Origin: Ahrensia kielensis DSM 5890
GTDB taxonomy: Bacteria; Pseudomonadota; Alphaproteobacteria; Rhizobiales; Rhizobiaceae
Direction: 5' to 3'
DNA length: 64,000 nt
Assembly (NCBI RefSeq): GCF_000374465.1
Contig: NZ_KB894534.1
Location: forward strand, 1 to 64,000
In this document: in pieces, positions 56,016-64,000 of the stretch
Numbering within the stretch: position 1 is the stretch's first letter
How the letters are laid out: the number at the start of each line of letters is the position of its first letter
Notes under the pieces: generated by a model
The model's database searches: none
What the model saw: only the letters and a program-made list of their open reading frames with translations
Told to the model about the DNA's origin: nothing
Program-made: the position numbers and the translations under genes

Positions 56016-56921
56016 TCATGAGTCCATTCGAATTGCCCTAAAGGTTTTTGCGATTTCGTTACAAAGTAGATGCTTTACTGGTGCGAAATTCACTTTCGAT
56101 GATACAAGCACTGCAATCTTTAAGCTGTTTAGTTCGGCAATATCAAGCGGTATAAACCGCACAGTCTCAGCTTCTATCTCATCCAAGAAGCCAAGCTTGG
56201 TATACATTCCAATGCCAGAATTTTGCAAAATCATCTCTTTGGCTAACGGCAAAGAGTTTGTGAACGTACGTGTGCCCAGTGATGGTGCCAGATTATCAAA
56301 GATTCGATCGAGTAAAGAGTGACCGCCGCGCGCATCAATAGTACGGATCAGCGGGTAGCCTTTCAAATCTTCAATAGATAATTTGTTGCGTTCTGCCAGT
56401 GCATGATTACGCACCATAACGGCACCGATTGGGCAAGATTTTTCAGTAAGAGTACGAACTCCTGGTTGATCCTCGAACCAGAATGATAAACCAATATCCG
56501 CATCACCATTTGCAATGGCCTTTACCACATCGTCTGGCTGTGCCGTTTTTACTGAATAAGTAACCTGCGGGTAGTTCTTTGAGAACTGGCTGAGGACACG
56601 CGGCAGTATACCTAATGTAATTGAGTCTAGAGATAAAATCTCCATATGCCCCGTACGCATGTCACGAATATCTTCAATTAAGACACTCATTCGATCATAC
56701 TCGAACAATGTCTTTCGGCAATGTTCTAGGACAATACTGCCCGCGCTGGTCAACTTCACGCCGCCAGGATTTCTGTGGAAAAGTTTTATGCCTAATTCTT
56801 TCTCCGTGCTGATGATTTTTCTGTTGACCGTTGTTGATGACATATTAAGCACGGCTGCTGCTTTTCTAATCGAACCCTGACGCGCAACCTCATCAAAATA
56901 CCTAAGAAATGTGCTGTGCAT
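56016..56921 (-). CDS. LysR-family transcriptional regulator
   Basis: 301 residues from the ATG at 56921. A GTG three codons earlier is possible. Helix-turn-helix FLRYFDEVARQGSIRKAAAVLNMSSTTVNRKIISTEKELGIKLFHRNPGGVKLTSAG, then a substrate domain (GHMEILSLDSITLGILPRVLSQFSKNYPQVTYSV, ANGDADIGLSFWFEDQPGV). It is divergent from the ABC/FAD/CoA-transferase operon at 57080 and is the likely activator of it. The 158-bp gap contains no perfect palindrome. Confidence 0.88.
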   Translation of the reverse strand: MHSTFLRYFDEVARQGSIRKAAAVLNMSSTTVNRKIISTEKELGIKLFHRNPGGVKLTSAGSIVLEHCRKTLFEYDRMSVLIEDIRDMRTGHMEILSLDSITLGILPRVLSQFSKNYPQVTYSVKTAQPDDVVKAIANGDADIGLSFWFEDQPGVRTLTEKSCPIGAVMVRNHALAERNKLSIEDLKGYPLIRTIDARGGHSLLDRIFDNLAPSLGTRTFTNSLPLAKEMILQNSGIGMYTKLGFLDEIEAETVRFIPLDIAELNSLKIAVLVSSKVNFAPVKHLLCNEIAKTFRAIRMDS

Positions 56922-57079
56922 GATTATCACTGCCTATTGTTTATGCCGGTGCAAAAAATGCCTCACGGTTAGCATCATATAGCACTATCAGCATTGCAAA
57001 TTCTATTGTTAGCTTCAAATCAGAGGTTTTCAGTTTCGTTTGTTTCCGACAATCCCCCCTCAATAAAGGAGTAAGTAAC

Positions 57080-58126
57080 ATGAAAAACGACCCCGCTTTG
57101 TCCATAGGACGCAGAACCCTTCTAAAGGGGGTTGGTGCGGCTGCAGGGCTTGCTAGCGCTGGTTCGCTGCTCTCAGTTGTCCCTGGTCGCGCTCAAGATC
57201 TTTATAAAATTAAATTGCAACTTGGTTGGCTTGCTTCAAATGGTGTTCTTGGTGAAGTGGTTGCTGCTGGCCGTGGTTTCTTTGAAGAAGAAGGCCTCGA
57301 ATTAGAGATTGTCGCCGGTGGTCCAAATATTGATGGTGTTGCATCTGTTGCATCAGGTGCCAATAATTTGGGGTCAATTTCATCCAGCCCTTCGCTAATG
57401 TTGGCGCGCTCTGCTGGACTTCCAATTAAATGTATTGCCGCTGGTTACCAGCAACACCCATTCACTTACTTTTCGCTTAGCGACAAGGGTAATGTTAAAG
57501 TTCCGCAAGATCTGATTGGTAAGAAAGTCGCTACGCAGGGTACCGCGCGCATTTTAATCAGAGCACTTCTGGCTAAAAATGGTATTTCTGAAGACGATGT
57601 AGAAGTCTCAGTTATGGGTGGTGATATGTCTCCGCTAATGACCGGGCAGGTCGATGTTGCTACGGGTTGGGATACTAATGTAGGAGCGCTATCCGTACTT
57701 GGCGATAAACGCGTTGATATGAGCCTGTGGGACACAGGCATAGAGCTTTACGCTAACCCTTATTATACTACGGATAAAATGCTTACTGAGCACGGCGACA
57801 AAGTTGCCGGCGCGATCCGCGCGATTTCTCGTGGTTGGGGGTGGGCTTATGAAAATGTCGAAGCGGCTGTCGATATGCTCGTCGAGCGCTATCCGAACCT
57901 AGATAAGGCGAGCGAGATGATCGCTGTACCGATGGTGCTGGCTTATTCCTTCAATGAGAAAACAGCAGCTAAAGGCTGGGGTACCATGACAAAGGAAAAC
58001 TGGCAAAACCAGATCGATATTTATGATAGCCTGGAACAATTTACGAATGAGACGCCAGAGGTTGATGATATTATGACGCTGGACGTTCTTGAAGCAACTG
58101 CAGACACACGCCCGACATTCGGATGA
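57080..58126 (+). CDS. NMT1/SsuA-type ABC transporter substrate-binding protein
   Basis: 348 residues with a Tat-type leader (GRRTLLKGVGAAAGLASAG) cleaved near PGRAQD. The NMT1 fold reads KIKLQLGWLASNGVLGEVVAAGRGFFEEEGLELEIVAGGPNIDGVASVASGANNLGSIS and LIGKKVATQGTARILIRALLAKNGI. The family binds pyrimidines, taurine, nitrate, phthalate and other compounds. The ligand here is not recognisable. It is first in the operon, overlaps the ATPase gene by 4 bp and, unlike the other binding-protein genes in this window, is not followed by a hairpin. Confidence 0.88.
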   Translation: MKNDPALSIGRRTLLKGVGAAAGLASAGSLLSVVPGRAQDLYKIKLQLGWLASNGVLGEVVAAGRGFFEEEGLELEIVAGGPNIDGVASVASGANNLGSISSSPSLMLARSAGLPIKCIAAGYQQHPFTYFSLSDKGNVKVPQDLIGKKVATQGTARILIRALLAKNGISEDDVEVSVMGGDMSPLMTGQVDVATGWDTNVGALSVLGDKRVDMSLWDTGIELYANPYYTTDKMLTEHGDKVAGAIRAISRGWGWAYENVEAAVDMLVERYPNLDKASEMIAVPMVLAYSFNEKTAAKGWGTMTKENWQNQIDIYDSLEQFTNETPEVDDIMTLDVLEATADTRPTFG

Positions 58127-58929
58127 GTGCTATGTTGAACCAGGAATTGAATCCATCAACACCTAACAGCATGATGGCCGCCACATTGAAGGAGGCGTCC
58201 GTCAAATTTGGAAACTTTACGGCGCTTCAAGATATCAGTCTGGATATACCGGAAGGGGACTTTTGGACAATCCTAGGTCCCTCCGGTTGTGGTAAATCGA
58301 CTATGTTGCGACTGGTATCTGATTTGATACCAGCGGCAAGTGGTGAGGTTTCTGTACTAGGGAAGTCAACACAAGAAGCTCGTCTTGCAAGAGAGTTTGC
58401 TTTTGTCTTTCAAGATGCAACTTTGTTAAATTGGCGTTCGGCTTTGAAAAATGTGGAACTGCCACTCGAAATTGGACGTAAGCGTGGCATTGATATCCCT
58501 AAAGGTAATCGGACGCCGCGAGAACTTCTGAAATTGGTTGGATTGGAAGGCAGAGAAAATGCGCTGCCGCATGAATTATCTGGCGGTATGCGTCAACGTG
58601 TGGCGATCGCTCGTGCATTAGTTTGCCAACCAAAATTATTGCTCATGGATGAACCTTTTGGTGCCCTAGATGAAATGACACGTGACCATCTAAATTTACA
58701 GTTGCTGGAAATTTGGAAGGAAACAGGCACGACAATCCTTTTTGTAACGCACTCGATCGCTGAAGCCGTATTTTTGGGTCAGAAAGTATTGATGCTTCAG
58801 GCTCACCCTGGGCGTGTGAAGGAGCTGGTTGATATCGATTTGCCTGAACCACGCGCCGTTAAGGTTCGCGATACCGCACAGTTCACTGCTTATTGCAGTC
58901 GGCTGCGTGAATTGCTGGAGGAGTGCTAA
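58123..58929 (+). CDS. ABC transporter ATPase (SsuB/TauB type)
   Basis: 268 residues. Walker A GPSGCGKST (52-60), Q-loop FVFQDATLLNW, signature ELSGGMRQRVAIARAL, Walker B LLLMDEPFGALDEMT, switch His in FVTHSIAEAVFL. Energises the NMT1-type importer. It overlaps both neighbours (ATGA at its start, TAATG at its end). Confidence 0.92.
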   Translation: MSAMLNQELNPSTPNSMMAATLKEASVKFGNFTALQDISLDIPEGDFWTILGPSGCGKSTMLRLVSDLIPAASGEVSVLGKSTQEARLAREFAFVFQDATLLNWRSALKNVELPLEIGRKRGIDIPKGNRTPRELLKLVGLEGRENALPHELSGGMRQRVAIARALVCQPKLLLMDEPFGALDEMTRDHLNLQLLEIWKETGTTILFVTHSIAEAVFLGQKVLMLQAHPGRVKELVDIDLPEPRAVKVRDTAQFTAYCSRLRELLEEC

Positions 58930-59741
58930 TGACCGCGATTGTTCAAAACGGTAATGCAGCAGATGCAAATAACGAAGTGGCTGATAGACCATCACGAAAT
59001 TATAAAAATTTAAGCAACTTCGCTGTGCCGTTGGGTACTGCGATCAGCTTAATCGCCATTTGGCAATTGGGTGTACGGTTGTTCGATGTGCCGACTTACA
59101 TTGCACCAGCGCCGAGCGATGTAGCTTTTACTTTTGTCAATGAATTTTCGCTTCTTGCACGTAATTTTTGGCCGACGTTTATAGAAAGTGTAAGTGGCTT
59201 CATTGTAGGGAATCTTGCTGCGATATTGATAGCTATTGCATTCGTTCACAGCCGTACGGTTGAACGTGCTTTCTTTCCTATTGCCGTATTCATCAACACT
59301 ATTCCCATTTTGGCAATCGCACCAATATTAGTTTTGATTTTTGGGTCCGGCATGACAGCTAAAATCGTCATCGCAGCGTTAATTTGTTTCTTTCCAACAT
59401 TGGTAAATATGGTTCGAGGTCTACAAGCCGTAAGGCCAGAGACATTGGAATTAACACGCATTTTGTCGGCATCGAAGTCAGAGGTTTTCTGGAAAATCCG
59501 ACTGCCATCATCGCTACCGTTCTTGTTTTCAGCGCTCAAAATTGCAGCAACTACCTGTGTCATAGGCGCGATTGTGGGTGAGTGGATTGGTGCCGATGTT
59601 GGGCTTGGTGCTTTGATTATCGACAGCACCTTCAATTTTAGATCGCCGCTGCTCTACGCCACGGTTTTCGTTTCATCAGGTTTATCAGTGCTCATGTTCG
59701 TGCTGGTCGTCATCACAGAAAAGCTTGTCGTGCGCTGGTAA
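58929..59741 (+). CDS. ABC transporter permease (SsuC/TauC type)
   Basis: 270 residues from ATG 58929, which shares a base with the ATPase stop. A GTG two codons earlier is possible. About six spans, with the EAA-like loop LTRILSASKSEVFWKIRLPSSLPFLFSALKIAATTCVIGAIVGEWIG, typical of BPD_transp_1. It completes the importer. Confidence 0.9.
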   Translation: MTAIVQNGNAADANNEVADRPSRNYKNLSNFAVPLGTAISLIAIWQLGVRLFDVPTYIAPAPSDVAFTFVNEFSLLARNFWPTFIESVSGFIVGNLAAILIAIAFVHSRTVERAFFPIAVFINTIPILAIAPILVLIFGSGMTAKIVIAALICFFPTLVNMVRGLQAVRPETLELTRILSASKSEVFWKIRLPSSLPFLFSALKIAATTCVIGAIVGEWIGADVGLGALIIDSTFNFRSPLLYATVFVSSGLSVLMFVLVVITEKLVVRW

Positions 59742-59781
59742 GACACCGCGCCTCATTCGCTAAAATTTATTGGAGGAAATT

Positions 59782-61149
59782 ATGTCAGAACGTCAGACAA
59801 CCCATGTGCGCGTCGAAGGCGCGGAATTACCAGTAGTCGCTGATTGTGATGTCGTTGTTGTCGGTGCGGGGCCAGCTGGCCACGCAGCAGCCGTCTCAGC
59901 AGCACGCAACGGCATGAATGTGACTTTGCTGGAGCGTTATCACCATCTCGGTGGCATGGCATCTGGTGGTATGGTCCTTGTGCTGGATGATATGGTCAAT
60001 GAAGGTAACGAGATTGTCACTACTGGCATTGTCGATGAATTTGTTGAACGTATGAAACGTCAAGACGGTGCTGTGTATCCACCGAAGGAAGAATGTCTAA
60101 CCAATTGGGAGATGTGGCAAAAATGGTCCCGTTGGGGCTGTATCGATTTTCATAAGTCAGTTTCACCTCAACCGATTATTCATGCGGTCGCTTTTGATCC
60201 AGACGCTTGGAAACGTGCCAGCTTGGATATGGTTCGTGATGCTAAAGTAAATCTACGGACACATTCATGGTTCTCTGACGTACTGATGGAAAATGGTCGG
60301 ATCACAGGCGTAATAGCGCAAACCAAACTTGGGCGCCAAGTCATCCGCGCCAAGATGGTCGTTGATGGTACAGGAGATCTAGATGTCGGTGTTGCTGCCG
60401 GTGCAGATTATACTGATGGTCAATATATTGTGACGACGGTGTTTCGATTATGCGACGTGGATACAGCTAAGGCCGAAGCGTTCGAATACAACAATCCTGA
60501 AGAGTACAAGAAGATTGACCGCGAAGCGCGCCGAGTCATTGGTGGTGCTTGGGGTATGTGGTGGCTGAAAACACCATTGCCCGGTATCGTTTGGTGTAAT
60601 TGCCCACACATGCCTGGCTATGACGGTTTGTCACCGGAAGACATGGTCGCTTCGGAATATGAAGGCCGTGAGCGTATGATGAAACTTTTGGATTATGCAC
60701 GCAAAAACATCCCTGGGTTTGAGAATGCTAAAATGCTGGGTGCTGCGGAGCAAATGGGTGTTCGCCAGACACGCCTTCTGCAAGGGGAGTATGTGGTAAA
60801 TAAAGATGATGTTAAATCACGTCGATATTTCCAAGACACAGTTTGTCGTGGGCGCGATTATTACACACCTTACCGCGCACTTTTGCCGAAGGGCATTGAT
60901 AATTTGATTGTTGCTGGACGTCATTATTCAGTCGACAGCGATGCGCAAAAACTCTCTCGTGAAATTCCACCTTGTATGGCGCAGGGAGAAGCTGCCGGTG
61001 TCGCGGTTTCCATTGCGATCAAAGAAGGCAAAGCTCTTCGTGATGTTGATCACCGAGCAATTCAAAAACAGATGCGCGCACAGGGTGCTGACCCAGGTGA
61101 TGTTCCGTCAGCAAATGCGCTGATCGAAGATACCGTCGCAGCCGAATAA
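59782..61149 (+). CDS. FAD-dependent oxidoreductase (FAD_oxidored family)
   Basis: 455 residues from ATG 59782 (GGAGGA RBS). A TTG in frame at 59770 covers the RBS. FAD loop DVVVVGAGPAGHAAAVSAARNG (28-33), the family hallmark HLGGMASGGMVLVL, a substrate-domain insertion rich in Trp (NWEMWQKWSRWGCID, GGAWGMWWLKTPLPGIVWCN), VDGTGDLDVGVAAGADY and the C-terminal FAD contact LIVAGRHYSVDSDA..MAQGEAAGVAV. No flavin-linked histidine is obvious. It likely oxidises or reduces a carbon-carbon or carbon-hydroxyl bond of the imported compound, possibly exchanging electrons with the ferredoxin three genes downstream. Confidence 0.85.
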   Translation: MSERQTTHVRVEGAELPVVADCDVVVVGAGPAGHAAAVSAARNGMNVTLLERYHHLGGMASGGMVLVLDDMVNEGNEIVTTGIVDEFVERMKRQDGAVYPPKEECLTNWEMWQKWSRWGCIDFHKSVSPQPIIHAVAFDPDAWKRASLDMVRDAKVNLRTHSWFSDVLMENGRITGVIAQTKLGRQVIRAKMVVDGTGDLDVGVAAGADYTDGQYIVTTVFRLCDVDTAKAEAFEYNNPEEYKKIDREARRVIGGAWGMWWLKTPLPGIVWCNCPHMPGYDGLSPEDMVASEYEGRERMMKLLDYARKNIPGFENAKMLGAAEQMGVRQTRLLQGEYVVNKDDVKSRRYFQDTVCRGRDYYTPYRALLPKGIDNLIVAGRHYSVDSDAQKLSREIPPCMAQGEAAGVAVSIAIKEGKALRDVDHRAIQKQMRAQGADPGDVPSANALIEDTVAAE

Positions 61150-61160
61150 GGAATAATATT

Positions 61161-62330
61161 ATGTCAGAACAAGTTACTCCGCTTGGCGGAACCCGTGTGC
61201 TCGACTTCACACAAGTTATGATGGGGCCATGTGCAACACAAACCCTTGGTGATTTTGGTGCTGATGTTATCAAAATCGAGCGCCCTATAGCTGGCGATTT
61301 ATCCCGTAATTTCTTCGGCGTACCAACCGAGGAAGCTATGAATAATGCGGTCTTTGCATCACTAAACCGTAATAAACGGTCGGTCGTGATCGACACTAAG
61401 TCAGAAGAAGGTCGTAATGCTGTTTTTGAACTGGTGAAAACAGCAGATGTGGTAGTAGATAATTTCCGCGCTGGTGTCATGGAACGTTTGGGCTTTGGCT
61501 ATGAAGCGCTTGCGAAGATTAATCCGCGTATCATCTGTGCATCGGGAACCGGTTATGGCCCGAAAGGACCTTATGCCCACAAGGGCGGACAGGACGTTTT
61601 GGCGCAGGCAATGAGTGGTGTGATGGATAAAACCCAAGATCCATCTATTCCCAAATCTATCTACCCAACAACACTTTGTGATTATTCTGCTGGCATGCAT
61701 TTGGTTCAAGGTATTCTTGCTGCACTATTGATGCGAGAGAAAACAGGCCGCGGACAGCAAATCAATGTTTCGCTCTATGACAGCATGATCGCCATGCAGA
61801 TGCAGGAAGCTGCGCAGTGGTCAAAGCACAATGAAGTGCTGAATTGGGCTGCAATGCCGCTAACGGGTGTGTTTGAAACAACAGACGGCGCAGTTGTTGT
61901 CGTCGGGGCATTCAAAGCCAATCCTCTTCACGATATCTGCAACGCCTTGGAAATAGATGACTTGTCACCGCAATATCCTGACCTTCCAATGCAGCGTCAA
62001 CATAAGCCGTTTATTCAAGAAGTCTTTGCTAAAGCATTTGCAACCAACACCAATGCTTACTGGTTAACGCGACTTGAAGCTGAAGATCTGTTGTGCGCTC
62101 CCGTTAGATCTCTTGGGGAAGCGCTGGACGATCCACAAACTGCAATCAATGATATGCTTCATCGGATTGATCATCCTGTGTTGGGAGACATCACGCTTGT
62201 GGGATCGCCCGTACATTTGAGCGAGGTGCCAATGAAAGTGCACCGGATGCCACCCAAGCTCGGTGAGCACACCGATGAAGTGCTCGGCGAAATTGCAGAG
62301 GCAAAAAATGCTGCGAGGCGAGTAGGGTGA
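61161..62330 (+). CDS. class III (CaiB/BaiF) CoA-transferase
   Basis: 389 residues. CaiB/BaiF family: GTRVLDFTQVMMGPCATQTLGDFGADVIKIE, SLNRNKRSVVIDTKSEEG, the catalytic Asp174 in YPTTLCDYSAGMHL, and LYDSMIAMQMQEAA. It transfers CoA from one carboxylic acid thioester to another, so the operon activates a carboxylate to a CoA ester. It overlaps the crotonase gene by 4 bp (GTGA). Confidence 0.92.
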   Translation: MSEQVTPLGGTRVLDFTQVMMGPCATQTLGDFGADVIKIERPIAGDLSRNFFGVPTEEAMNNAVFASLNRNKRSVVIDTKSEEGRNAVFELVKTADVVVDNFRAGVMERLGFGYEALAKINPRIICASGTGYGPKGPYAHKGGQDVLAQAMSGVMDKTQDPSIPKSIYPTTLCDYSAGMHLVQGILAALLMREKTGRGQQINVSLYDSMIAMQMQEAAQWSKHNEVLNWAAMPLTGVFETTDGAVVVVGAFKANPLHDICNALEIDDLSPQYPDLPMQRQHKPFIQEVFAKAFATNTNAYWLTRLEAEDLLCAPVRSLGEALDDPQTAINDMLHRIDHPVLGDITLVGSPVHLSEVPMKVHRMPPKLGEHTDEVLGEIAEAKNAARRVG

Positions 62331-63100
62331 GCATTCTCTTTAACATTGAAGGCCAAGTTGCTCGCATTACCATCGATCGGCCAGATCGTATGAATGCTGT
62401 TGATCGCGAGGCGCACAAACGGCTCGTTGAGATATGGGATGAGATCGACACTAACCCTAATATTCGCTGTGCAGTTCTAACTGGATCAGGGGAACGTGCT
62501 TTTTGCGCCGGTGCTGATTTGAAGGACGATAGTGGTTTGTCTGGCGTTGAATATTGGGAGCAATTAGGGGCAGATTTCGGAGGTATTTCTTTGAGAAAAA
62601 GCCTGTCAAAACCTGTGATTGCTCGCGTTAACGGGCTGGCTTTAGGTGGTGGATTTGAAATGGTGTTGGGTTGCGACATCATTGTTGCCGCTGACAACGC
62701 TCGTTTTGGTTTGCCTGAAGCCAAAGTTGGTCGGCTGCCGCTTGATGGCGGAATGGTGACTTTGCCACGCCTTATGCCGCGTAATATCGCTGTTGGCATG
62801 ATGATGACGGGACGAATGGTTCCTGCGCTACAAATGGCTCAGTATGGATTGCTAAATGCAGTGGTGAAATTTGATGATCTTGACGCTGAGGTCGACCGTT
62901 GGGTGAGCGATATTTTAGCTGCTGCACCACTCAGTGTGCAGGCGATTAAAGCAACGGTACGTCGCACAGCACATCTAGATACGCAGGCTGCTTATAACAC
63001 GCGTCTCCCTGAACTGATTGCAGCGTTGGAATCTGTTGATGCCGAAGAAGGCGTTCTTGCATTTCGTGAAAAGCGGGCGCCGGTTTGGAAAGGTCAGTAA
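62327..63100 (+). CDS. enoyl-CoA hydratase/isomerase (crotonase) family protein
   Basis: 257 residues from GTG 62327, translationally coupled to the CoA-transferase gene. Oxyanion-hole segments FCAGADLKD and LALGGGFEMVLGCDI. Both Glu positions used by true hydratases are occupied (GGGFE and FGLPEAKVG), so hydratase or dehydratase activity is plausible. The pair CoA-transferase plus crotonase resembles carnitine-type (CaiB/CaiD) chemistry, in which an acid is CoA-activated, hydrated or dehydrated, then released. Confidence 0.9.
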   Translation: MSILFNIEGQVARITIDRPDRMNAVDREAHKRLVEIWDEIDTNPNIRCAVLTGSGERAFCAGADLKDDSGLSGVEYWEQLGADFGGISLRKSLSKPVIARVNGLALGGGFEMVLGCDIIVAADNARFGLPEAKVGRLPLDGGMVTLPRLMPRNIAVGMMMTGRMVPALQMAQYGLLNAVVKFDDLDAEVDRWVSDILAAAPLSVQAIKATVRRTAHLDTQAAYNTRLPELIAALESVDAEEGVLAFREKRAPVWKGQ

Positions 63101-63103
63101 TCT

Positions 63104-63430
63104 ATGGCCTTGGTGATCATCAGCCCCTGTCTCGACATTAAGGACGGTATTTGCACCACGTCATGTCCTGTCGATTGCATCTATGAGGGGGAACGAATGT
63201 TTTACATTCACCCTACAGAATGCATCGAATGCGGCATGTGCGAAACGATCTGTCCTGTTGATGCTATTCGTTATGATGATGAAGTGCCACAGGGTGAAGA
63301 GGAATTTGCAGCGCTAAACGACACGGTTTTCCGTGGAGTTGACGGTTCACTCAATGAACCTGGCGGATGGAAAAAGGGTCAGAAGCCCTTAAGCGATCCG
63401 CAAAAATTAAAATCACTGACCGAGAAATAA
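63104..63430 (+). CDS. 7Fe-type ferredoxin
   Basis: 108 residues. Cysteines 9, 17, 21, 25 and 40, 43, 46, 50 match the [3Fe-4S][4Fe-4S] ferredoxin pattern (FdxA/Azotobacter FdI type): Cys9, Cys17 and Cys50 for the 3Fe cluster, Cys21, 40, 43 and 46 for the 4Fe cluster. The non-ligand Cys at position 12 of FdxA is absent. The C-terminal extension of 50 residues (NEPGGWKKGQKPLSDP) is as in FdxA. It lies 3 bp after the crotonase gene, so it is a dedicated electron carrier of this operon, probably for the FAD oxidoreductase. Confidence 0.88.
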   Translation: MALVIISPCLDIKDGICTTSCPVDCIYEGERMFYIHPTECIECGMCETICPVDAIRYDDEVPQGEEEFAALNDTVFRGVDGSLNEPGGWKKGQKPLSDPQKLKSLTEK

Positions 63431-63450
63431 TAAAATTGAGGAGGAAACTT

Positions 63451-64000
63451 ATGCAGGGTGTAATCGCTGCTGTTCCAACAGCTATTGACGCAAGCGGCGT
63501 GCCGCAACGCGTGCCATTTATTGAGCATTGCCAGTGGGCCCTCGATAATGGTTGTGACGGTCTCAACATTCTTGGATCGACGGGGGAGGCCAACTCCATT
63601 TCCAATGATAATCGGAAAACCATAATGGAATGGGCAGCTGCTGATCTTGACGTATCACGGCTGATGGTTGGCACCGGCACGCCGTCGCTTGAAGATACAA
63701 TTACGTTGACTAAACATGCAGATGACTTGGGTTACGGTATAGCACTGGTGTTGCCGCCATATTACTACAAGCCTGTTAGCGACGAAGGTCTGTTTGCTTG
63801 GTACGCTGCTCTAGAACAAGCTTTGTCCGGTCGGAAAATAGAAATTTATTTCTATAATTTTCCTCAGATGACGGGAATTGAAATTCCCGTGTCGGTTATT
63901 GCAGCACTTGCTGAGAGTAGCCCCAAACGGTTTACTGGAATCAAGGATTCTTCTGGTAATCTTGAATATTGCCGCGCGGTACTTACCGTCGCACCAGCTC
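63451..64000 (+). CDS. dihydrodipicolinate synthase (DapA) family lyase, cut by the window end
   Basis: 183 residues are visible from ATG 63451 (GAGGAGG RBS), and the frame is open to the last base. Class I aldolase fold: NILGSTGEANS (the GTTGE motif), LVLPPYYYKPVSDEGL, Tyr135 in YFYNFPQMTG and the Schiff-base Lys165 in GIKDSSG. Family members cleave or condense 2-keto acids (lysine biosynthesis, keto-deoxy sugar acids, hydroxy-oxoglutarate, neuraminate). In this catabolic operon a retro-aldol or dehydration step on a 2-oxo acid is more likely than lysine biosynthesis. Confidence 0.88.
   Translation, partial: MQGVIAAVPTAIDASGVPQRVPFIEHCQWALDNGCDGLNILGSTGEANSISNDNRKTIMEWAAADLDVSRLMVGTGTPSLEDTITLTKHADDLGYGIALVLPPYYYKPVSDEGLFAWYAALEQALSGRKIEIYFYNFPQMTGIEIPVSVIAALAESSPKRFTGIKDSSGNLEYCRAVLTVAPA

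Follow-up and report, generated by a model that had tools for sequence, protein, structure and literature searches.

The locus described here raises the question of which small molecule a bacterium takes up and degrades with an operon that unites an NMT1/THI5-like importer, an FAD-dependent oxidoreductase with its own ferredoxin, a CoA-transferase, a crotonase and a DapA-type lyase. The operon lies in Ahrensia kielensis DSM 5890, at the right-hand end of the stretch of DNA that was analysed (the window; 64,000 bases, G000:C7:1-64000, on the 69,086-base contig C7 of a 3.36 Mb genome). The initial annotation had described eight genes in one transcript, divergent from a LysR-type regulator, and all eight were recovered in place, with the families assigned to them and with the divergent regulator. 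The total did not stand. To the right of position 64000 the end of the lyase gene is followed by an aldehyde dehydrogenase (ALDH) gene and a gene for a CMP/dCMP-type deaminase, which had been missed because the window ended there. Since both continue the operon on contig C7, it comprises ten genes, not eight. Within the window the genes overlap or are separated by at most 28 bp in the list of open reading frames (ORFs), a spacing that suggests a single transcription unit.

The operon is a genuine, conserved catabolic unit assembled from known families. ALDH and deaminase tell most about how the route ends and what it acts on, the deaminase being the strongest indication of the substrate. Our tentative explanation, which we hold to be quite possible without calling it probable, is a self-contained, LysR-controlled operon for the uptake and CoA-dependent catabolism of an amino-N-heterocyclic acid or a nucleoside-like compound. 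Within this class, a compound of the 4-aminopyrimidine type is favoured.

A conserved core with frequent partners

Loci were collected with the FAD enzyme as query from named genomes (one per species), plasmid records and unnamed relatives. The named-genome loci are the best 80 of 500 confirmed FAD relatives, and some plasmid records are without annotation. Among 127 FAD-positive loci, 109 with at least 6.5 kb between the midpoint of the FAD gene and each end were counted and 18 shorter ones were dropped. The sample was picked by FAD similarity and is hence weighted to close relatives: the 127 loci form 58 clusters at 90% and six at 75% FAD identity, and three contigs are present twice (L036/L091, L037/L086 and L127/L146).

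The concern that the six enzyme genes of the initial annotation might rarely co-occur proved unfounded for the FAD enzyme, CoA-transferase and crotonase, which were found together in 109/109 loci, and for the ferredoxin, retained in 105/109. It is borne out in part for DapA (70/109, counted with an identity threshold that misses the divergent actinobacterial DapA). ALDH, also counted by an identity threshold, was found in 47/109 loci, a deaminase and/or a TRZ/ATZ amidohydrolase in 72/109, and the NMT1 binding protein in 101/109. A LysR match lay no more than 11 kb from the FAD gene in 101/109 loci, at a loose 28% identity where unrelated LysR proteins may count. CoA-transferase and crotonase are present in all six FAD lineages (75% identity), and because like partners recur in these lineages the gene grouping is far above chance. 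FAD enzyme, CoA-transferase, crotonase and ferredoxin make up the core, which DapA, ALDH and deaminase often accompany; there is no obligate association of all six enzymes.

The core occurs in Alphaproteobacteria from the sea and from soil, in some members of the Gamma- and Betaproteobacteria, and on plasmids of actinobacteria. With the own genome counted, the FAD enzyme was detected in 26/199 genomes of the family (E<=1e-60) and, at E<=1e-100, in 9/249 genomes of the order and 2/398 of the phylum. In actinobacteria a distant protein of the dihydrodipicolinate synthase (DHDPS) family fills the place of DapA. Four plasmids from Rhodococcus and Arthrobacter encode a cupin/XRE protein, a major facilitator superfamily (MFS) transporter, the FAD enzyme, CoA-transferase, crotonase, the DHDPS-family protein, a short-chain dehydrogenase/reductase (SDR) and an ALDH; three of the four also encode the ferredoxin. 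Two loci from metagenome-assembled genomes may be mis-binned: L097, which bears the label Solirubrobacteraceae, and L099 (Kiritimatiellae), both with matches of 78-80%. A gene for a beta-keto acid cleavage enzyme (PF05853, tested for L043) adjoins ferredoxin and DapA in L043 (14292-15089) and also in L044 and L045, three close Rhizobiaceae genomes and too few to be weighed. The same holds for an AptA-type omega-aminotransferase, which passes its cut-off, beside L145 and L097.

An operator-like dyad was observed between the divergent LysR and binding-protein genes. The set comprised 74 related intergenic regions (73 distinct), chosen at more than 40% identity for LysR and more than 55% for the binding protein. 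The strict dyad occurs in 53/74 regions versus 0.2 expected, with a maximum of 2 in 200 first-order Markov resamples, which are not an exact shuffle. With a 7-base spacer the loose form is present in 58/74 regions; the overall count of the loose form, 64/74, includes a chance match in the window, where the degenerate dyad copy was located by eye (Table 1). Scanning 16 genomes for GYGRTGC-N7-GCAYCRC returned 38 places: 13 genomes have one at the operon, and the remaining 25 places lie elsewhere; the reversed-pattern control gave 13 places (forward strand). The spacer holds 6 or 7 A/T of 7 at 13/13 operon sites and at most 5 at all 25 other sites. The dyad pattern alone is not unique, and its form with an A/T-rich spacer was found solely at the operon. 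Because this form is confined to operon sites, the LysR protein may be a local regulator with a single target.

The features of the locus are collected in Table 1. For the lyase, Met29 (position 63451) is the likely true start. Two neighbouring ORFs lie 3' of the operon near the contig end (C7:66322-67065; L003:10823-11566); by eye only we take them to be pieces of insertion sequence transposase genes, and one has no Pfam match. Comparison of window positions 1-25000 with plasmids gave short matches only, among the matches listed.

Table 1. Genes and operator-like dyad of the locus (window positions unless marked C7)
Feature	Position	Strand	Remarks
LysR-family regulator	56016..56930	-	PF03466 and PF00126; divergent from operon
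Operator-like dyad	56946..56966		CCGGTGC-N7-GCCTCAC; two mismatches to GYGRTGC-N7-GCAYCRC
NMT1/THI5-like periplasmic binding protein	57080..58126	+	PF09084; twin-arginine (Tat-like) signal
ABC transporter ATP-binding protein	58123..58929	+	PF00005
ABC transporter permease	58923..59741	+	PF00528
FAD-dependent oxidoreductase, putative FixC/GGR-like fold (core enzyme)	59770..61149	+	PF12831, 289.8 bits
Class III (Frc-type) CoA-transferase (core enzyme)	61161..62330	+	PF02515, 371.9 bits
Crotonase-family enoyl-CoA hydratase (core enzyme)	62327..63100	+	PF00378, 182.8 bits
FdxA-type 7Fe ferredoxin (core electron carrier)	63104..63430	+	FdxA_Actino 115.9 bits, cut-off 125
DapA/NAL-superfamily lyase	63367..64000 in window, ends C7:64320	+	PF00701
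Aldehyde dehydrogenase (ALDH)	C7:64333-65769, beyond window		12-bp gap after DapA
CDA-fold zinc deaminase, 157 aa	C7:65766-66239, beyond window		4-bp overlap with ALDH; PF00383

Encoded proteins and a candidate route

The binding protein belongs to the NMT1/THI5-like family (PF09084, 168.6 bits; gathering cut-off 20.5), and its twin-arginine pair R11-R12 was kept in 16/16 cases. In a structure model (pLDDT 76) it most resembles 4nmy with bound thiamin (Z 30.9, rmsd 3.3, 289 aligned), followed by the aminopyrimidine binder ThiY, 3ix1 (Z 30.4, rmsd 3.5, 290 aligned). Thi5 scored Z 28.0 and the sulfonate binder SsuA Z 24.4. By this model the binding protein appears closer to thiamin and aminopyrimidine binders, 6.5 Z units above SsuA, and its ligand would presumably be of this kind. 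It shares a fold clade with 3ix1 and 4nmy, but at 21-22% identity, and unlike them it has a Tat-like signal and stands in a catabolic setting. The binding-protein gene is doubled before one transporter in L040 (4806-5840 and 6376-7410) and L049, possibly for two ligand variants. The MFS transporter of Rhodococcus comes closest to the metabolite/H+ symporter subfamily, with 276 bits against a cut-off of 443.

The deaminase belongs to the CMP/dCMP type, with 75.7 bits on PF00383 and an HAE...PCxxC zinc site; His76 and Glu78 were kept in 64/64 loci and Cys104 and Cys107 in 63/64, one locus being uncovered. Its closest matches are 7fh4, of CMP/dCMP type, and the deoxycytidylate deaminase 2w4l, and it occurs mostly in the large FAD lineage (59/64 found). 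TRZ/ATZ amidohydrolases, which have an unrelated fold, are encoded in Rhizobiaceae and some others. Five of these amidohydrolases (L046, L052, L123, L128 and L150) matched N-ethylammeline, 5'-deoxyadenosine and TRZ/ATZ families best, all under cut-off. Both types were found in L106, L107, L110, L111 and L115, where the amidohydrolase match is weak and in four cases lies near neighbouring purine genes. In five Silicimonas/Boseongicola loci (L107, L110, L111, L115 and L116) xdhA and xdhB stand 3' of the deaminase gene, and those of L116, the one locus tested, pass the xanthine-dehydrogenase equivalog cut-offs. A 5'-nucleotidase-family gene is present in four gammaproteobacterial loci, with a second copy in three, and an adenosine-deaminase-family gene in one other. 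Together, the deaminases, the purine-type neighbours and the ThiY-like binding protein point to an amino-N-heterocycle. The ORFs that follow xdhA/xdhB in the five loci look xdhC-like and guanine deaminase-like by eye. Two gammaproteobacterial loci (L128:7764-9434 and L134:10985-11869, L134 ending at a contig edge) encode amidohydrolase-like proteins with a lipoprotein-like N-terminus by eye, suggesting substrate processing outside the cytoplasm.

The initial annotation had likened the FAD enzyme with its ferredoxin to FixC/FixX. In a second-look alignment of the structure model (pLDDT 79) the best match was 7koe_C, FixC/EtfC (Z 18.8, rmsd 5.1, 317 aligned). A geranylgeranyl-reductase-like protein, ranked first by Foldseek, reached Z 17.3, and other FAD families score close behind FixC. 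A PDB sequence search with the enzyme returned only Rossmann-region matches of other proteins. All eight ferredoxin cysteines were kept in 118/118 loci covered, which gives the 7Fe pattern; their assignment to [3Fe-4S] and [4Fe-4S] clusters is presumed on the model of A. vinelandii FdI. The best NCBIfam match of the ferredoxin, FdxA_Actino, stays under its cut-off (Table 1). As in FixABCX/EtfABCX (7koe), a flavoprotein of what may be a similar fold is encoded with its own ferredoxin, but the ten operon genes include neither FixA nor FixB, and the ferredoxin is a 7Fe protein of FdxA type.

The crotonase was assigned to its family by its score (Table 1) and by Glu111 and Glu131, kept in 124/124 loci covered, which we take to be the catalytic pair. 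The best NCBIfam matches of the CoA-transferase are Frc/formyl-, mesaconate- and glutarate-CoA-transferases, all under cut-off, and it is far from CaiB. Its family score (Table 1) and Asp174, kept in 126/127 loci with one uncovered, place it in class III; for Frc-type CoA-transferase, passages of PMC10057887 describe a catalytic role of Asp169.

Lys193, Tyr163, Thr72 and Tyr133 of the lyase were kept in 77/77 loci covered, in line with membership of the DapA/NAL superfamily. We take Lys193 to be the Schiff-base residue and Tyr163 to be catalytic. Among solved structures, 3dz1 comes closest to the DHDPS protein of Rhodococcus, followed by the L-2-keto-3-deoxyarabonate (L-KDA) dehydratases 3fkk and 7c0c; such enzymes form 2,5-dioxovalerate, the semialdehyde of 2-oxoglutarate. 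The ALDH of the operon scores best as a 2,5-dioxovalerate dehydrogenase (510.2 bits; next family of other activity 425, 85 lower), as do the ALDHs of Woeseiaceae L132 (510 bits, next 410) and Rhodococcus L136 (481 bits, next 327). The catalytic cysteine was kept in 52/53 loci, with one uncovered. Two DHDPS subfamilies precede a similar ALDH, which speaks for a 4-hydroxy-2-oxo acid as intermediate and for an exit in the direction of 2-oxoglutarate; we infer from these sequences that the route would end in this way. The hydroxyproline (HypD/HypH) and L-arabinonate routes to 2-oxoglutarate likewise lead from a DHDPS-superfamily enzyme to a 2,5-dioxovalerate-type dehydrogenase, and they are not known to use a CoA-transferase, crotonase or ferredoxin. 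In Ensifer locus L139 (4610-8880) an SDR gene, an RraA-like gene and a second DHDPS-family gene stand beside the ALDH, and an L-arabinonate dehydratase gene adjoins.

A route for an amino-N-heterocyclic or nucleoside-like compound could be composed of these families as follows. The ThiY-like, Tat-type binding protein and the ABC transporter would import the compound, and the CMP/dCMP-type deaminase, or elsewhere the TRZ/ATZ amidohydrolase, may take off an exocyclic amine. The FixC-like flavoprotein with its dedicated 7Fe ferredoxin might then catalyse a single two-electron reaction on a C=C or C-N bond. The Frc-type transferase would form a CoA thioester, with CoA handed from product to next substrate, and the crotonase would add or remove water. 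The resulting 4-hydroxy-2-oxo acid could be cleaved or dehydrated by the DapA-class Schiff-base lyase. Finally, judging from its family scores, the ALDH may oxidise a 2-oxo-semialdehyde-like product, most simply 2,5-dioxovalerate to 2-oxoglutarate. A far-reaching form of this proposal, which we consider doubtful, is an undescribed and widespread CoA-dependent aminopyrimidine or nucleoside route in which a FixC-like protein, paired only with a 7Fe ferredoxin and without FixAB, would reduce or dehydrogenate a heterocyclic acid, which transferase, crotonase, DapA-class lyase and ALDH would convert to 2-oxoglutarate. No description of the gene set, and no substrate assigned to it, was found in one open-access library, judged by titles and abstract openings, where texts with the hyphenated 'CoA-transferase' may escape. 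The initial annotation, which knew of no described pathway with exactly this gene set, agrees with this.

Several observations weigh against the proposed route. Neither deaminase type was found with the queries used in 37/109 loci, including those of actinobacteria and Burkholderiaceae, and the amine may therefore be no part of the core substrate. Purine and nucleotide neighbours are confined to few lineages and may be there by chance, and the core set contains no known ring-opening hydrolase. The nearest solved relative of the window DapA is 3b4u, deposited as dihydrodipicolinate synthase, and the DapA of L054, of the same subfamily, is also 3b4u-like. By sequence the window DapA appears to have no specific closeness to a 2,5-dioxovalerate-forming enzyme: neither HypD nor KDA dehydratase is among its 60 best solved relatives, whereas KDA dehydratase is a listed relative of the Rhodococcus DHDPS protein. 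All three main-type ALDHs fall short of the curated 750 bits of the 2,5-dioxovalerate dehydrogenase equivalog. A different ALDH (at least 51% identical to that of L088) is encoded in L059, L080, L088, L101, L103 and L112, and this type, scored for L088, is about equal on several families at ~100 bits. For the FAD enzyme, the Foldseek TM-score to the best match is only about 0.45-0.46. As to LysR control, no exact dyad is present at the operon in 3/16 genomes (G000, the window's own, G164 and G814).

Competing explanations

Loci without a deaminase, such as Paracoccus L031 with DapA and ALDH, are accounted for if the operon serves the benzoyl-CoA-like reductive dearomatisation of a small heteroaromatic acid, e.g. 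pyrrole-2-carboxylate, the deaminase being an optional extra for amino-substituted precursors. We regard this as unlikely, although it employs every core enzyme. After activation of the acid by the CoA-transferase, the FixC-like protein and the ferredoxin, which accompanies the flavoprotein in 105/109 loci, would reduce the ring; the crotonase would hydrate it, DapA would open a cyclic imine in the manner of HypD, and the ALDH would yield 2-oxoglutarate. An ALDH of 2,5-dioxovalerate type fits this order, as does the symporter-like MFS transporter of Rhodococcus. However, enoyl-CoA hydration places the hydroxyl on C3, not C4, and HypD is missing from the 60 best solved relatives of DapA. It would also be unusual for a flavin to reduce a heteroaromatic ring with neither ATP nor a bifurcating partner.

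The pentose part of a nucleoside, or a C5 sugar acid, is an improbable substrate in our view, though this reading and the dearomatisation are the main rivals of the proposed route. Transferase and crotonase would here act as a CoA-dependent sugar-acid dehydratase to give a 2-oxo-3-deoxy acid, DHDPS and ALDH would continue in a Weimberg-like manner, and the deaminases would handle the base. L-KDA dehydratases are the second and third solved relatives of the Rhodococcus DHDPS protein, and in the Ensifer-type loci L032, L042 and L139 two genes at a distance of 6 to 7.6 kb from that of the FAD enzyme encode proteins similar to the Rhodococcus SDR (43-44%) and DHDPS protein (33-34%). The ALDH family and the 5'-nucleotidase-family neighbours of the four gammaproteobacterial loci would also agree. 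Against this, sugar kinases, phosphorylases and known sugar-acid dehydratases are lacking among the ten genes, none of the family matches listed for the FAD enzyme is a sugar oxidase, and we know of no nucleoside importers of the NMT1-type class.

A hydratase-aldolase route for a product of aromatic ring cleavage, of the kind described for tetralin, is very improbable. Tetralin yields pimelic semialdehyde and pyruvate, followed by CaiB-type CoA activation and beta-oxidation, and this sequence of hydratase, aldolase, ALDH, CaiB-type transferase and enoyl-CoA hydratase (PMC6563040) resembles that of the operon. A plasmid of Paracoccus sp. MA (L031:1-1091) also has, some 11 kb upstream of its FAD gene, an annotated alpha subunit of an aromatic ring-hydroxylating dioxygenase. 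The tetralin aldolase is class II, not DHDPS, according to the same passages (PMC6563040). The tetralin (thn) and isoprene (iso) clusters share with the operon a CaiB/Frc-type CoA-transferase next to ALDH and hydratase, aldolase or dehydrogenase genes, but they start with an oxygenase, and the source passages mention no NMT1 importer, deaminase or FixC-like/7Fe ferredoxin pair for them. Oxygenase and ring-cleavage enzymes are lacking among the ten genes (the ORFs of other loci were partly checked), and the ThiY-like importer and the deaminase fit poorly.

A carnitine or betaine pathway is hardly credible: the broad enzyme types agree with those of the cai operon with its fix genes (Frc-superfamily CoA-transferase, crotonase and FixC-like protein) and the FAD enzyme aligns best in structure with FixC, but the carnitine-like character first ascribed to transferase and crotonase fails on sequence (CaiB 104.5 bits, cut-off 413; CaiD 189.5, cut-off 500), FixA/FixB and CaiA are absent from the ten operon genes, and cai/fix is not known to include such an importer, DapA, ALDH or deaminase. 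None of the nicotinate, picolinate, trigonelline, ectoine and thymine/uracil routes is known to combine DapA, CoA-transferase and crotonase. Catabolism of the thiamin pyrimidine (HMP) fits importer and deaminase and leaves DapA without a role; it is therefore retained only as a substrate class within the best explanation, an amino-N-heterocyclic or nucleoside-like compound.

Should flavoprotein and ferredoxin be shown to work as proposed in the absence of their usual partners, the pair would constitute a new redox device. A compound that merits about ten genes in many habitats is probably common, and its identity would thus fill a gap in nitrogen and carbon cycling.

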